NCBI GenBank assembly: GCA_009692065.1
Contig: SHZY01000003.1
Span: forward strand, 1-64,000
Length of the DNA stretch: 64,000 nucleotides
Reading direction: 5' to 3'
Source: Gemmataceae bacterium
Lineage (GTDB): Bacteria > Planctomycetota > Planctomycetia > Gemmatales > Gemmataceae
The notes beneath the pieces were generated by a model. The model did no database searches, had not been told where the DNA came from, and was given only the letters and a program-made list of their open reading frames with translations. Of this stretch, positions 11,271-16,467 are shown one piece after another (position 1 is the first letter of the stretch; each line of letters begins with the position of its first letter). A program made the translations under genes and the position numbers.

Positions 11271-12638
11271 ATGCTGCGACTGGATGCACAAAAACCGGCC
11301 CGCTTCTGCGACGGCCTGATCCGCCGTGATTTCCTGCATGCCGGCGCGATCTCGGTGCTCGGCCTGACGCTGGGCGATTACCTTGCCGCACAGCAGAGCG
11401 GCCAGGCCGATCGCGACGTGAATTGCATCATGCTGTTCCTGGTCGGCGGCCCCAGCCACATTGACACGTGGGACCCGAAGCCCGACGCGCCGGTCGAGGT
11501 GCGCGGACCATTCCAGCCGACGGCAACCAACGTGCCGGGCATGCGCATCAGCGAAACCTTTCCGCGCATGGCTCGTCATGCCGACAAGTTCTCGCTGGTT
11601 CGTTCCGTTTATCACACCGCCGCGGCTGTACATGACACCGGCCATCAGATGATGCAAACCGGGCGTCTATTCACTGGCGGCATCGAGCATCCCCATATCG
11701 GCTGTGCCCTGGGTTACGTCAAAGGCCAGCGAGCCGAGATGCCGGCCCACGTACTGTTGCCTCGCCCGATTGGCCGCACCGGTGGCAACCTGCCGCATGG
11801 GCACACGGCGGGTTATCTGGGCCGAGCGCACGATCCGTTCATCCTCAACGCAGATCCTGCCGTGCCCGACTTCCAGGTGCCGGACCTGCTGCCCCCGTCG
11901 TACATTTCGCCGATCCGCGCCGACCGACGCCAACGGATGCGTGACGCCGTCGATGCCTCTCTGGATGCCTTCGAACACAATCAACAGGCCCGCCAGCTCG
12001 ACGGCAACTTTCAACTCGCCTACCGGTTGATGTCCAGCCCGCGAGCGCGCGAGGCGTTCAACCTGAACCAGGAATCGCCGACAATGCGCGACCGCTATGG
12101 CCGCACACGCTTTGGACAGAGTTGTCTGCTGGCCCGCCGCCTGATCGAACGCGGCGTGCGCTTCGTCACCGTCAACATGTTCGAGACGGTCTTCGACGAA
12201 GTCACCTGGGACATCCATGGCTCGCGGCCCTTCACCGACATCGCCCAAATGTCGCGCGAGGTGGTGCCGAACTTCGACCGCGCCTACTCCGCGCTGCTCG
12301 AAGATCTGACCGACCGCGGCCTCTATTCCAACACGATGGTCACCGCGATGGGCGAGTTCGGCCGCACGCCGAAGATCAACCCCGCCGGCGGCCGCGATCA
12401 TCATCCGGGCGTCTGGACCATCTTAATGGGCGGCGGTCCAATTCGCGGCGGCCGCGTCATCGGCGAATCCGACGAACTCGGCTATCGCCCGAAGTCGCGC
12501 CCCGTCACCACCGGCGAAGTCGCGGCGACTCTGTACCGCGGCCTCGGCCTCGATGTACATCGCGAGCTGCCGGGACCGCAGGGGCGGCCGATCCCGCTCG
12601 TCGATTTTGGGGTGCAGGCGATTCGGGAGTTGTTCTGA
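11271..12638 (+). CDS. DUF1501 domain-containing protein
   Basis: IRRDFLHAGAISVLGLTLGDYLA...CIMLFLVGGPSHIDTWDPKPDAPVEVRGPFQP...GEFGRTPKINPAGGRDHHPGVWTILMGGG. Confidence 0.93.
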   Translation: MLRLDAQKPARFCDGLIRRDFLHAGAISVLGLTLGDYLAAQQSGQADRDVNCIMLFLVGGPSHIDTWDPKPDAPVEVRGPFQPTATNVPGMRISETFPRMARHADKFSLVRSVYHTAAAVHDTGHQMMQTGRLFTGGIEHPHIGCALGYVKGQRAEMPAHVLLPRPIGRTGGNLPHGHTAGYLGRAHDPFILNADPAVPDFQVPDLLPPSYISPIRADRRQRMRDAVDASLDAFEHNQQARQLDGNFQLAYRLMSSPRAREAFNLNQESPTMRDRYGRTRFGQSCLLARRLIERGVRFVTVNMFETVFDEVTWDIHGSRPFTDIAQMSREVVPNFDRAYSALLEDLTDRGLYSNTMVTAMGEFGRTPKINPAGGRDHHPGVWTILMGGGPIRGGRVIGESDELGYRPKSRPVTTGEVAATLYRGLGLDVHRELPGPQGRPIPLVDFGVQAIRELF

Positions 12639-12657: not shown

Positions 12658-12699
12658 GGGGGGGCGAGGCTCCTGCCGAGCCGCGAAGTCCGTTGTAAC
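12658..12699 (+). repeat. REP-like copy R1 (left 42-nt arm of composite)
   Basis: gggggggcgaggctcctgccgagccgcgaagtccgttgtaac matches the reverse complement of 13948-13989 with 2 mismatches. Confidence 0.9.
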
Positions 12700-12760
12700 C
12701 CGTCGCATCTCGTGCTGGAGGAGCCCGAAATGAACGCCGCTGAGTTACGAGAAATTCCCC

Positions 12761-13402
12761 TTGCCTCGGACTTCAAAACTGGCTTGGGGGGAAATCAGCT
12801 CATACCTCGCCAGCATCATGCAGGAGCGGCCGATCATCAATCTACTTGCGAACTGCCTGTGGAAGCAGAAGCCCAAGTATGCGTATGCGCTTGAGAGGTA
12901 TGAACATCACGATTTGACGGTGAATGGCAAGCACCTCGAGTTCAAGTTTAATTACGACACGTGTGCTGAAAAATTGAAAAAAGAATTGGGCAAGCTTGGT
13001 GAGAGCCTCACTGGAAAACCCACTGTCGAAACGAAAGGAAATTGGGGCGTCGCGCCGAGGATCTGGAAGGATCTAAGCCAGAAAAAACCTCATTTGTTCG
13101 TTTGGATTATCTGCGAGCGTGATTTGGGATCGCTGAGTAGGGACGAGCTCGAAAGGATATGCTATTATGAACCGCTGCTGAAATACCGGCGCTCCAATCC
13201 GTACAAGACAGGTCGCGAATTTTTGGGGACAGTTGACGGGTTCCTGGGAATACTCCAGGGGCTCAGGCCGTTCTCTGTCTTGCCGGCGGAAATCAAAACG
13301 AACGGCGACTTTCCGTCAATCTATCACTTTAGAATCTGTGAATTCCTGCAACCTTTAGGCTCGGCGGGAGCCTCGCCCTCCCGATCCGCGTGCCAGGGAT
13401 AA
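12761..13402 (+). CDS. Hypothetical protein, possible PD-(D/E)XK nuclease fold; start uncertain
   Basis: HDLTVNGKHLEFKFNYD resembles a D...E-x-K core; frame open from 12734 without a clear ATG; tail LGSAGASPSRSACQG is encoded by REP R2. Confidence 0.6.
   Translation: MPRTSKLAWGEISSYLASIMQERPIINLLANCLWKQKPKYAYALERYEHHDLTVNGKHLEFKFNYDTCAEKLKKELGKLGESLTGKPTVETKGNWGVAPRIWKDLSQKKPHLFVWIICERDLGSLSRDELERICYYEPLLKYRRSNPYKTGREFLGTVDGFLGILQGLRPFSVLPAEIKTNGDFPSIYHFRICEFLQPLGSAGASPSRSACQG
13358..13383 (-). repeat. REP-like copy R2
   Basis: ggctcggcgggagcctcgccctcccg; internal hairpin ggctc-ggcgg-gagcc. Confidence 0.9.
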
Positions 13403-13406
13403 CGAC

Positions 13407-13889
13407 ATGAACAGCCAGGGCAAAGACCACGGCAATCTTGCGAACCGAAAACATCCCATGCATGGCGTCCTCTTCGTGGACGGCCAACCGATAATTATTT
13501 TTGACACTGTTTGTACCAAGGATCGATCACCGTGGTTGGCCAGCGATGCGGTGCATCAATTACTTCGGGAAATCTGGCAGGAGGCGAGCGCGTGGTGGAT
13601 GGGAAGGTATATGATCATGCCGGATCATATACACTTCTTCGCGGCCGCTACCGAGTCAACGATTGCTTTCGATAGTTGGGTCAAATACTGGAAATCCCAG
13701 TTTACGAAGCGCCACAAGGTGCCGGAACATCGTTGGCTGACCGACCACTGGGACGTTCGCATCAGAAACGAAACTGCGTACGAAGAGAAGTGGGATTACG
13801 TCTTGCAAAATCCTGAGCGCGCGGGTTTGGTCGCCAAACCCAAAGATTGGCAGTGGCAAGGTGTCATTCACGATTTGCCATGGAAATGA
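13407..13889 (+). mobile_element. REP-associated tyrosine transposase (RAYT, Y1 transposase)
   Basis: HUH motif MIMPDHIHFFAA, C-terminal KWDYVLQNPERAGLV; flanked by REP copies R2 and R3/R4. Confidence 0.88.
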
Positions 13890-13910
13890 TCCAGATTGCA
13901 CGAATTGGTC

Positions 13911-13989
13911 GGGAGGGCGAGGCTCCTGCCGAGCCACGGAACGCCAAGTTACAACGGGCTTCGCGGCTCGGCAGGAGCCTCGCCCTCCC
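13911..13989. repeat. Inverted REP pair R3/R4 (BIME-like)
   Basis: gggagggcgaggctcctgccgagcc (13911-13935) and ggctcggcaggagcctcgccctccc (ending 13989) are perfect reverse complements. Confidence 0.93.
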
Positions 13990-13998
13990 ATCCCAGAA

Positions 13999-16467
13999 AT
14001 GAATCGGAAACCCATGAACACAATACTTTTAACGGCCGCCTTACTTCTCCCTGGCCAACCATCGCTGCAAATCCAGCCGCCCGCCGTCACGCTCACCGGC
14101 CCCCAGGCGACGCAACGCTTGATCGTGCTACGGGCCGAGAACAACGAGATCGTCGGCGACATCACGCCACGCGCCGAATTCTTCTCCTCCAACCCGAAAG
14201 TCGCGACCGTTGACGAAACCGGCGTCGTCAAGGCGATCGGTGATGGCGAAACTAACATCTCCGCGGCCCATGATGACATGCGTGCTGTCGTGAGGGTCAA
14301 AGTCGAAAAGACGCGTGAAGCGTCCACCGTAAGCTTCGCCAACCACGTGATTCCGTTGCTGACAAAGGTCGGCTGCAACTCGGGCGCATGCCATGGCGCG
14401 CTGGCCGGCAAGGGAGGCATGAAGCTCTCGCTGCGCGGCTACGATCCGGACGCCGATCATTTCGTGCTGACCCGGCAAGCCGGCGCCCGCCGCGTCAATC
14501 GGCAGGAACCGGCGCGTAGCTTGATGCTCATGAAGCCGACGCTGGCGCTGCCGCACGGCGGCGGCTTGAAGCTGGACGTCAAGTCGCCCGAGTTTCGCGT
14601 GCTGGCCGACTGGATTGCCGAGGGGGCGCCGGGCGTTTCCAAAACCGAAGCGAAGATTGAACGCATCGAGGCGTTTCCGCCGCGCGCGACGTTGAAGCCG
14701 CAGGACCAACTGCAAGTCGTCGTTCGCGCCTGGTATTCCGACGGCCACTCCGAAGAAGTGACGCGCTGGGCCCGCTATGGTAGCACGGAGGACCTGGTCG
14801 CCGGTGTCGATGACTTGGGCCTCGTCAAGGTTGCGGGCCACGGTGAAGCTGCCATTTCGGTGATCTTTGCGAATCAGGTGGCGCTGGTGCGCGTTGCGTC
14901 GCCATTCGAAAACAACGTCAAGCCGAAGGTATACGCGCAGTCGCCTCGCCATAACTTCATCGACGATCTCGTCGTCAAGAAGCTCGCGGCGCTCAAGATT
15001 CCGCCATCGCCGCAATGCTCGGACAGCGAGTTCATTCGGCGTGCGTACCTGGATGCGATGGGAGTGCTGCCTTCGCCCGACGAAGTGCGCAAGTTCACGA
15101 GCGATCCGCGCAAGGATCGACGCGCCAAGTTAATCGACGCAATCGTGCAGCGACCGGAGTTCGTCGATTACTGGACCTACAGGTGGTCCGACCTGCTGTT
15201 GATTTCAAGCCGCAAGCTGCCGCAGCCTGCCATGCGGGCGTTCTATCAATTCGTGCGGCAAAGCGTGGCTGACGACAAGCCGTGGGACCGGTTCGCACGC
15301 GATATCCTCACGGTGCGCGGCAACACCTTGCAGAACGGCCAGGCGAATTACTTCATGCTCCACAAGGACATCAGCGTTTTAAGCGAGACGACGGCGTTGA
15401 CATTCATGGGCATGTCGATCATGTGTGCGCGGTGCCACAACCATCCGCTCGAGAAATGGACGCAGGATCAATACTGGGGCATGGCCAATCTGTTTTCGCA
15501 AATCGCGATCAAGAACGGCGAGCGCGCCGGTGAGTTCAGCATTCAATCGACTGGCGAAGGCGACGTCGCCCATCCGCGCCGCGGCATCGCCATGGCCCCA
15601 ACCCCGCTCGATGGTAAACCTCATGCCGGCGCAAAAGATCGCCGCGAGTACTTCGCTGATTGGCTCACGGCGCCCGACAATCCGTATTTCTCCAAGGCGC
15701 TCAGTAATCGCGTCTGGCGCAACTTCCTTGGGCGCGGACTGGTGGAAGCCGAGGACGACCTGCGGCAGACGAATCCCGCGTCGAACGAAGAGCTGCTGGA
15801 CGCGCTGGCACGTGATTTCGTCAAGAACAAATACGACATCAAGCATCTGATCCGCTCGATCATGAACTCGGCCGCGTATCAGCGTTCTGCTATGCCGCAA
15901 GCGGCGAACAAGGGGGATGATCGTTACTACTCACGGTATCTCATTCGTCGACTTCCCGCGGAAGTCGTGCTCGACGCCTACAGCGATTTCACCAAAGTGC
16001 CGACTGCGTTCACGAAAGTCGCCGTCGGCTCCTCCGGCGGCGATGCGGCGACCGCGGATTATCCGCTGGGTACCCGCGCTTTGCAACTGCCCGATACGCA
16101 GCTCGTCTCGCAATTCCTCGACGCCTTCGGCCGGCCCGAGCGCGGCCAAACCTGTTCATGCGAACGGCAGCAGGAATCGAGCGTCACGCAAGCGCTGCAC
16201 CTGAACAACGGCCAAACGCTGAATGATAAGCTGCGCAGCAAGAAGTCGCGCGTCGAAGAATGGCTCAACGAGAAGGTCGGCGACGATGAGGCGATCCTCC
16301 GCGTATTCAGCCTTGCCCTCTCGCGTGCCCCGAATGACGCAGAGCTGGCACGCTTCCGCAAGCTGATGGCCGAGTCGGCCCGCGATCCGCAAGTGGGGCG
16401 CCGCGAGGTGCTGGAGGACCTGTGCTGGTCCGTGCTGACGAGCCGGGAGTTTTTGTTCAATCGCTGA
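13999..16467 (+). CDS. DUF1549/DUF1553 (PSCyt2/PSD1) protein with Ig-like N-terminal region
   Basis: VIPLLTKVGCNSGACHG, FIRRAYLDAMGVLPSPDEVRKF, NHPLEKWTQDQYWGMANLFSQI, ALSNRVWRNFLGRGLVEAEDDLRQTNPASNEELLDALARDF; upstream ORF extension runs through the REP pair. Confidence 0.93.
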   Translation: MNRKPMNTILLTAALLLPGQPSLQIQPPAVTLTGPQATQRLIVLRAENNEIVGDITPRAEFFSSNPKVATVDETGVVKAIGDGETNISAAHDDMRAVVRVKVEKTREASTVSFANHVIPLLTKVGCNSGACHGALAGKGGMKLSLRGYDPDADHFVLTRQAGARRVNRQEPARSLMLMKPTLALPHGGGLKLDVKSPEFRVLADWIAEGAPGVSKTEAKIERIEAFPPRATLKPQDQLQVVVRAWYSDGHSEEVTRWARYGSTEDLVAGVDDLGLVKVAGHGEAAISVIFANQVALVRVASPFENNVKPKVYAQSPRHNFIDDLVVKKLAALKIPPSPQCSDSEFIRRAYLDAMGVLPSPDEVRKFTSDPRKDRRAKLIDAIVQRPEFVDYWTYRWSDLLLISSRKLPQPAMRAFYQFVRQSVADDKPWDRFARDILTVRGNTLQNGQANYFMLHKDISVLSETTALTFMGMSIMCARCHNHPLEKWTQDQYWGMANLFSQIAIKNGERAGEFSIQSTGEGDVAHPRRGIAMAPTPLDGKPHAGAKDRREYFADWLTAPDNPYFSKALSNRVWRNFLGRGLVEAEDDLRQTNPASNEELLDALARDFVKNKYDIKHLIRSIMNSAAYQRSAMPQAANKGDDRYYSRYLIRRLPAEVVLDAYSDFTKVPTAFTKVAVGSSGGDAATADYPLGTRALQLPDTQLVSQFLDAFGRPERGQTCSCERQQESSVTQALHLNNGQTLNDKLRSKKSRVEEWLNEKVGDDEAILRVFSLALSRAPNDAELARFRKLMAESARDPQVGRREVLEDLCWSVLTSREFLFNR

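Follow-up and report, generated by a model that had tools for sequence, protein, structure and literature searches.

What does it mean when a protein-coding gene lies between the inverted repeats that belong to a REP-associated tyrosine transposase (RAYT)? The question is raised by positions 12658-13989 of a 64,000-nt stretch of DNA from a Gemmataceae bacterium, here called the window, in which a 26-nt repeat occurs in four copies (R1 to R4) alongside a RAYT gene and a second open reading frame, referred to below as the passenger (Table 1). The original prediction, made from the window alone, had taken this segment for a composite element bounded by extended repeat arms. We find that a RAYT accompanied by REP hairpins is a known kind of locus and that its unusual part is a rare nuclease-like gene within a REPIN, that is, within an inverted pair of REPs.

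Table 1. Features of the RAYT-passenger locus and its two neighbours (window coordinates)
Feature	Position	Strand	Remarks
DUF1501 gene, left neighbour	11271-12638	+	
R1	12658-12699	+	REP and 16 nt of REPIN loop; left arm of the REPIN upstream of the RAYT
Passenger 5' end, other frame (MNAAELREIPLASDFKTGLG)	12730-12792	+	Matches homologue N-termini, e.g. MTAADLTEIFTPSGFKIGLEEIS
Passenger ORF, 213 aa, putative PD-(D/E)XK-like nuclease	12761-13402	+	Orphan family
R2	13358-13383	-	REP; right arm of upstream REPIN, 49 nt before RAYT start
RAYT (REP-associated Y1/HUH tyrosine transposase), 160 aa	13407-13889	+	Single copy in genome
R3	13911-13938	+	REP; left arm of downstream REPIN
R4	13962-13989	-	REP; right arm of downstream REPIN
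PSCyt2/PSD1 gene, right neighbour	14014-16467	+	

The proposed identity of the transposase is borne out. Its DHIH motif (residues 73-76) and the tyrosine Y131 within YVLQNP are sequence motifs conserved across the aligned relatives, and the protein matches both the NCBIfam model REP_Tyr_transpos (E 1.5e-19, 70.3 bits, under the cut-off of 80) and the TnpAREP structure 4er8 of the PDB (E 7.5e-6). The score marks it as a divergent RAYT; the cut-off of 80 serves naming and is no biological feature. REPs in inverted orientation flank the gene, in the order R2(-) RAYT R3(+), and most of its relatives also have inverted REPs next to them. Its relatives, which are 48-82% identical to the query from the congener G001, belong to scattered members of the class and mostly give one match per genome, the exceptions being G099 with two and G105 with a split gene. 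In the latter (G105:C40:57847-58295) the RAYT lies in two adjacent pieces, possibly through a frameshift or as a pseudogene; the REP is present there in about 253 copies.

The repeat itself (GGGAGGGCGAGGCTCCTGCCGAGCC) departs from the canonical REP definition (PMC6006769), as its foot reads GGGAG and contains no GT[AG]G. A lone REP forms a 5-bp hairpin that folds weakly (z of -0.6 and -0.3), and the R3-R4 pair gives a single long hairpin (z = -10.8). In the three closest RAYTs, W-L stands at the position of the W-Q motif, which has been tied to GTAG recognition (PMC6006769). However, more distant members of the clade retain W-Q together with the same REP, and the W-L substitution alone therefore does not explain the missing GTAG. 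All four sites of the 21-nt REP core in the window fall at the locus, with 0 expected from 100 shuffles. The whole genome, a 255-contig assembly, holds about 120 copies (60+60, at most 2 mismatches; reversed control 0), and the census of sites listed or fetched, which covers about 110 of the 120, has 53 inward pairs. These repeats are thus dispersed inverted REP pairs with a long hairpin, as REPINs are.

The association of repeat and transposase holds far beyond this genome. Each of the 13 genomes with a RAYT sharing 49% identity or more with the G001 query had the REP, at 5-440 copies (at most 1 mismatch). Among the 96 sampled genomes that have no close RAYT, 12 had it (p = 2e-10); with more distant RAYTs (below 49%) a REP was found in one genome of eight, in 4 copies. 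The repeat is hence the REP cognate to a clade of planctomycete RAYTs, and the case in which REPs would be unrelated to the distribution of RAYTs, named in advance as counter-evidence, is itself refuted. One assembly, G002 (92% complete), contains 161 REP copies and yielded no close RAYT, which may reflect loss of the gene or an assembly gap at the repeats. Eleven of the 12 RAYT loci inspected have a REP next to the gene. Most often the clade shows the arrangement (+ -) RAYT (+ -), with the outer upstream arm at about -100 to -176 and the inner one at about -50 to -74; an inner arm equivalent to R2 lies at -51 to -74 in G001, G009, G266 and G106, and in G009 both REPINs are empty.

The four repeats and the inverted pairing of R1 with R4 over 42 nt (12658-12699 and 13948-13989; 95%, 2 mismatches) were found as the original prediction had placed them, with the R3/R4 pairing extending over 28 nt. 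The significance attached to the 42-nt arms did not hold up, since passenger-free RAYTs of the clade are also flanked by long inverted arms, of 38 nt (L118) and 63 nt (L120). Such arms arise because the repeats on either side of a RAYT are mutual inverted copies; they are no proof of a composite transposon, and we have dropped an argument for one that is built on them alone.

What does set the locus apart is the spacing of its upstream repeats. The own-genome REPs that could be placed form inward pairs 28-58 nt apart at 53 sites, the only exceptions being R1, R2, C12:65840 and C221:17161. R1 and R2 are separated by 696 nt instead of the usual 50-100 or so and enclose the passenger, and seen from the RAYT the inner arm is at its usual distance (-49) and the outer one at -745 rather than at about -100. 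Moreover, R1 keeps 16 nt of the R3/R4 REPIN loop, a stretch absent from the 30 other own-genome REPINs read, and the loop half GCGAAG(T/C)CCGTTGTAAC is common to R1 and R4. R1 and R2 thus resemble the separated halves of a single REPIN, and the gap between them, the retained loop and the displaced outer arm place the passenger within the upstream REPIN. R2 at the same time encodes the C-terminal tail of the passenger. The exception at C221:17161 is of another kind: a single in-frame REP within an NtrC-type response regulator gene, where it encodes AREGEAPAEP in the receiver-ATPase linker.

The passenger ORF is open and belongs to a family conserved in five copies, in all of which D59 and E77-x-K79 (numbering of the copy on contig C12 of the same genome) are invariant; the nuclease-like motif first suspected here is therefore upheld, with the start of the protein corrected to about 12 residues upstream. 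The homologues begin at that earlier point, and in the window the corresponding N-terminal stretch, with its ATG at 12730, lies in another frame, the break being at or near the G6 run at 12786-12791. This indicates a frameshift near the start of the gene. As it may be real or a sequencing error, the present function of the window copy is uncertain; the D/ExK core stays open in the 213-aa ORF. A structure model built from the five sequences (pLDDT 77) has the element order alpha-beta-beta-beta-alpha-beta, with D59 opening one strand and E77-x-K79 in the next. This is the strand placement seen in PD-(D/E)XK enzymes. The passenger may accordingly be modelled as a putative PD-(D/E)XK-like nuclease, an identity that rests on motif and predicted topology, given that the structure search returned no fold match at E <= 0.001. 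Attempts to name it by family or fold through Pfam, NCBIfam, PADLOC, PHROGs, PDB, BFVD and Foldseek gave no usable match, and none was found among plasmid and phage records. Uma2 and other PD-(D/E)XK restriction-like proteins share the D...ExK motif and the predicted element order, but the passenger has no detectable sequence or fold match to any named family.

The family is very rare. Searches of 95 genomes of the family and 398 of the class, together with a pattern scan across 84,980 species, yielded five copies: the own genome has two, and three further genomes have one each. In G001 the RAYT (82% identical to that of the window) lies between cysD and cysN, and the passenger homologue (44% identical) is located inside the downstream REPIN of this RAYT, with arms at +495 and +559 and at +1297 and +1355 in a nested + + ... 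- - arrangement. All five REPs of this genome (at most 1 mismatch) are at this locus. The passenger precedes the RAYT in the window and follows it in G001, and these two are the only RAYT-passenger loci known. The second own-genome passenger (56%), on contig C12, is situated between cysD-Uma2 (the Uma2 gene, PF05685, being its neighbour) and cysN, without a RAYT; one REP adjoins its 3' end, with the same codon spacing as for R2. As REPs are common at gene 3' ends, this lone REP could be incidental. The passengers of G026 and G049 have stop codons of their own and neither a REP of the R1-R4 type nor a RAYT beside them; their neighbours are a phage-type integrase and a GIY-YIG protein in G026 and a HEPN protein in G049. 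An inverted pair, TGCCATGCTTGCGGGG...CCCCGCAAGCATGCCA (L070:857-921), begins 18 nt past the G049 passenger stop and possibly represents a second REPIN-like family. A passenger conserved apart from REPs and RAYT had been named as what would speak against the original prediction, and this is half the case, as the G026 and G049 homologues lack both and the C12 copy lacks the RAYT. We have rejected the notion that the passenger is a fixed partner of the RAYT, since it occurs without one and most RAYTs occur without a passenger.

Orthologues of the DUF1501 gene are 82-90% identical in the genus and in G009, and the orthologous DUF1501/PSD1 junctions lack the insert and are short, with 82 nt in G003, about 170 nt in G004 and a similar length in G009; other relatives carry unrelated inserts there. 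A different palindrome, of the CCGCTTGCGGCTTAGCGCTCGC type, follows the DUF1501 gene in G004, G006 and G003 (L041, L042 and L044), which indicates that this junction repeatedly acquires palindromic repeats. The cysD/cysN junction in turn looks like an insertion hot spot. Uma2-family genes are found there in the own genome and in G005 (L006, L062) and are 49% identical to each other as compared to about 87% for the flanks. Within the cysN coding sequence of G005 lies yet another long palindrome, GTGGGGACAGGCGGCTCGCCTGTCCC...GGGACAGGCGAGCCGCCTGTCCCCAC (L087, G005:C26).

Passenger and RAYT have a GC content of 0.50-0.52 as opposed to 0.61-0.65 in their neighbours. At fourfold sites the comparison of the window with G001 gives 0.29 for the RAYT and 0.26 for the passenger, both saturated, whereas cysD, cysN and DUF1501 keep 0.54-0.60. 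By this sequence comparison vertical inheritance of the RAYTs within the genus is improbable. The window and C12 passengers, at 0.54 (39 sites), appear to have diverged at about genus depth. The data are consistent with lateral arrival of the REPtron, whether or not the passenger moved with it. Because both genes are saturated, we dropped the unequal identity of RAYT (82%) and passenger (44%) as a disproof of co-transfer; the similarity of the REP-to-ATG stretches of window and G001 is too short for use.

We consider it probable, at roughly 60%, that we are dealing with a REPtron at the DUF1501/PSD1 junction in which a REPIN has captured a gene. A single-copy domesticated Y1 transposase with a REPIN of cognate REPs on each side would have inserted into this junction, and a separate accessory gene, the putative PD-(D/E)XK-like nuclease, would have been captured within the upstream REPIN, whose two arms, R1 and R2, it would have parted. 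Cleavage and rejoining of REP hairpins in single-stranded DNA by the RAYT, or recombination from REP to REP, could put genes between REP arms, and the passenger would then be bounded by RAYT-recognised ends and in principle be movable with them. Direct support comes from the anatomy of the locus, the REP-RAYT linkage, the split-REPIN position, the recurrence in a second genome, the short junctions of relatives and the atypical GC content; the capture route, any mobility and the nuclease activity are what we infer. Then again, there are only two RAYT-passenger loci and their gene order differs, the G026 and G049 homologues do without RAYT and this REP, and ordinary recombination could also yield the observed position.

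Would the RAYT instead move the whole R1-R4 segment, or R1-R2, as a unit, so that a composite mobile element arrived at the DUF1501/PSD1 junction? The short junctions without insert and the foreign GC common to both genes would fit such an arrival, as would the second locus at another site, in a genome with hardly any other REPs and with the passenger within nested arms; the saturation of both genes at fourfold sites leaves room for co-transfer. Against a unit that moves intact stand the unlike gene orders in window and G001, the differing identities of its two genes and the one RAYT copy per genome, and extended arms occur without a passenger too; we regard this as unlikely. We are equally doubtful that the arrangement is a coincidence at a hot spot, where an ordinary accessory gene landed by the RAYT through unrelated recombination and the REPs merely fill intergenic gaps. 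It is true that in relatives both junctions host further genes and a different palindrome family, and that the G026 and G049 homologues reside in other accessory contexts. However, for a family of five copies it would be surprising that two of the three in the genus are found no more than 1 kb from the sole RAYT of the clade in their genome, that REPs are present in 4 of 4 passenger-positive genomes compared to 15 of 99 overall (p = 4e-4), and that R1 and R2 resemble the halves of one REPIN. Finally, we think it quite improbable that the passenger is a homing-like nuclease that enters REPIN loops by opening REPIN hairpins or cruciforms, with strand cleavage and joining provided by the RAYT, or that REPINs are gene cassettes carrying protein-coding cargo.

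How does a REPtron with a captured gene compare with described systems? With the REPtron/RAYT (TnpAREP) systems and their REPINs (PMC6006769, PMC8266576, PMC3116915, PMC2817692) the locus shares a single-copy HUH/Y1 protein with HUH and YxxxNP motifs, inverted flanking REPs, genome-wide dispersed inverted pairs and a RAYT that predicts the presence of the REP. It differs from them in the GGGAG foot in place of GT[AG]G, in the 5-bp hairpin of the lone REP, in the W-L of the three closest RAYTs, and in the protein-coding gene inside one REPIN. In the Marinomonas MWYL1 REPtrons Ma and Mb the REPs are clustered beside the transposase gene, which was read as recent arrival (PMC8266576); the G001 locus likewise has its REPs concentrated at the RAYT but contains a passenger gene inside the cluster. 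The TIRtron/TIRYT (PMC3733652) also combines a tyrosine transposase with long flanking inverted repeats that can form genome-wide dimers, and is not known to hold any gene but the transposase within the repeats; here, by contrast, the inverted repeats are REPIN copies, do not fit GGGGWSAS and occur in many genomes. A literature search that covered few subscription papers found no account of a RAYT with a gene lying within a neighbouring REPIN.

Within the clade, RAYT identity falls to as little as 49% while the REP, which lacks GTAG, hardly changes, and this makes the clade useful for the question of how RAYTs recognise DNA. In the prevailing view REPINs are tiny non-coding passengers of a domesticated transposase. 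Our analysis suggests that such repeats are able to acquire genes and perhaps to carry them: a gene between REPIN halves, twice, by the cognate RAYT, would mean that REP ends can enclose genes and possibly move them, a proposition that lends itself to direct testing.
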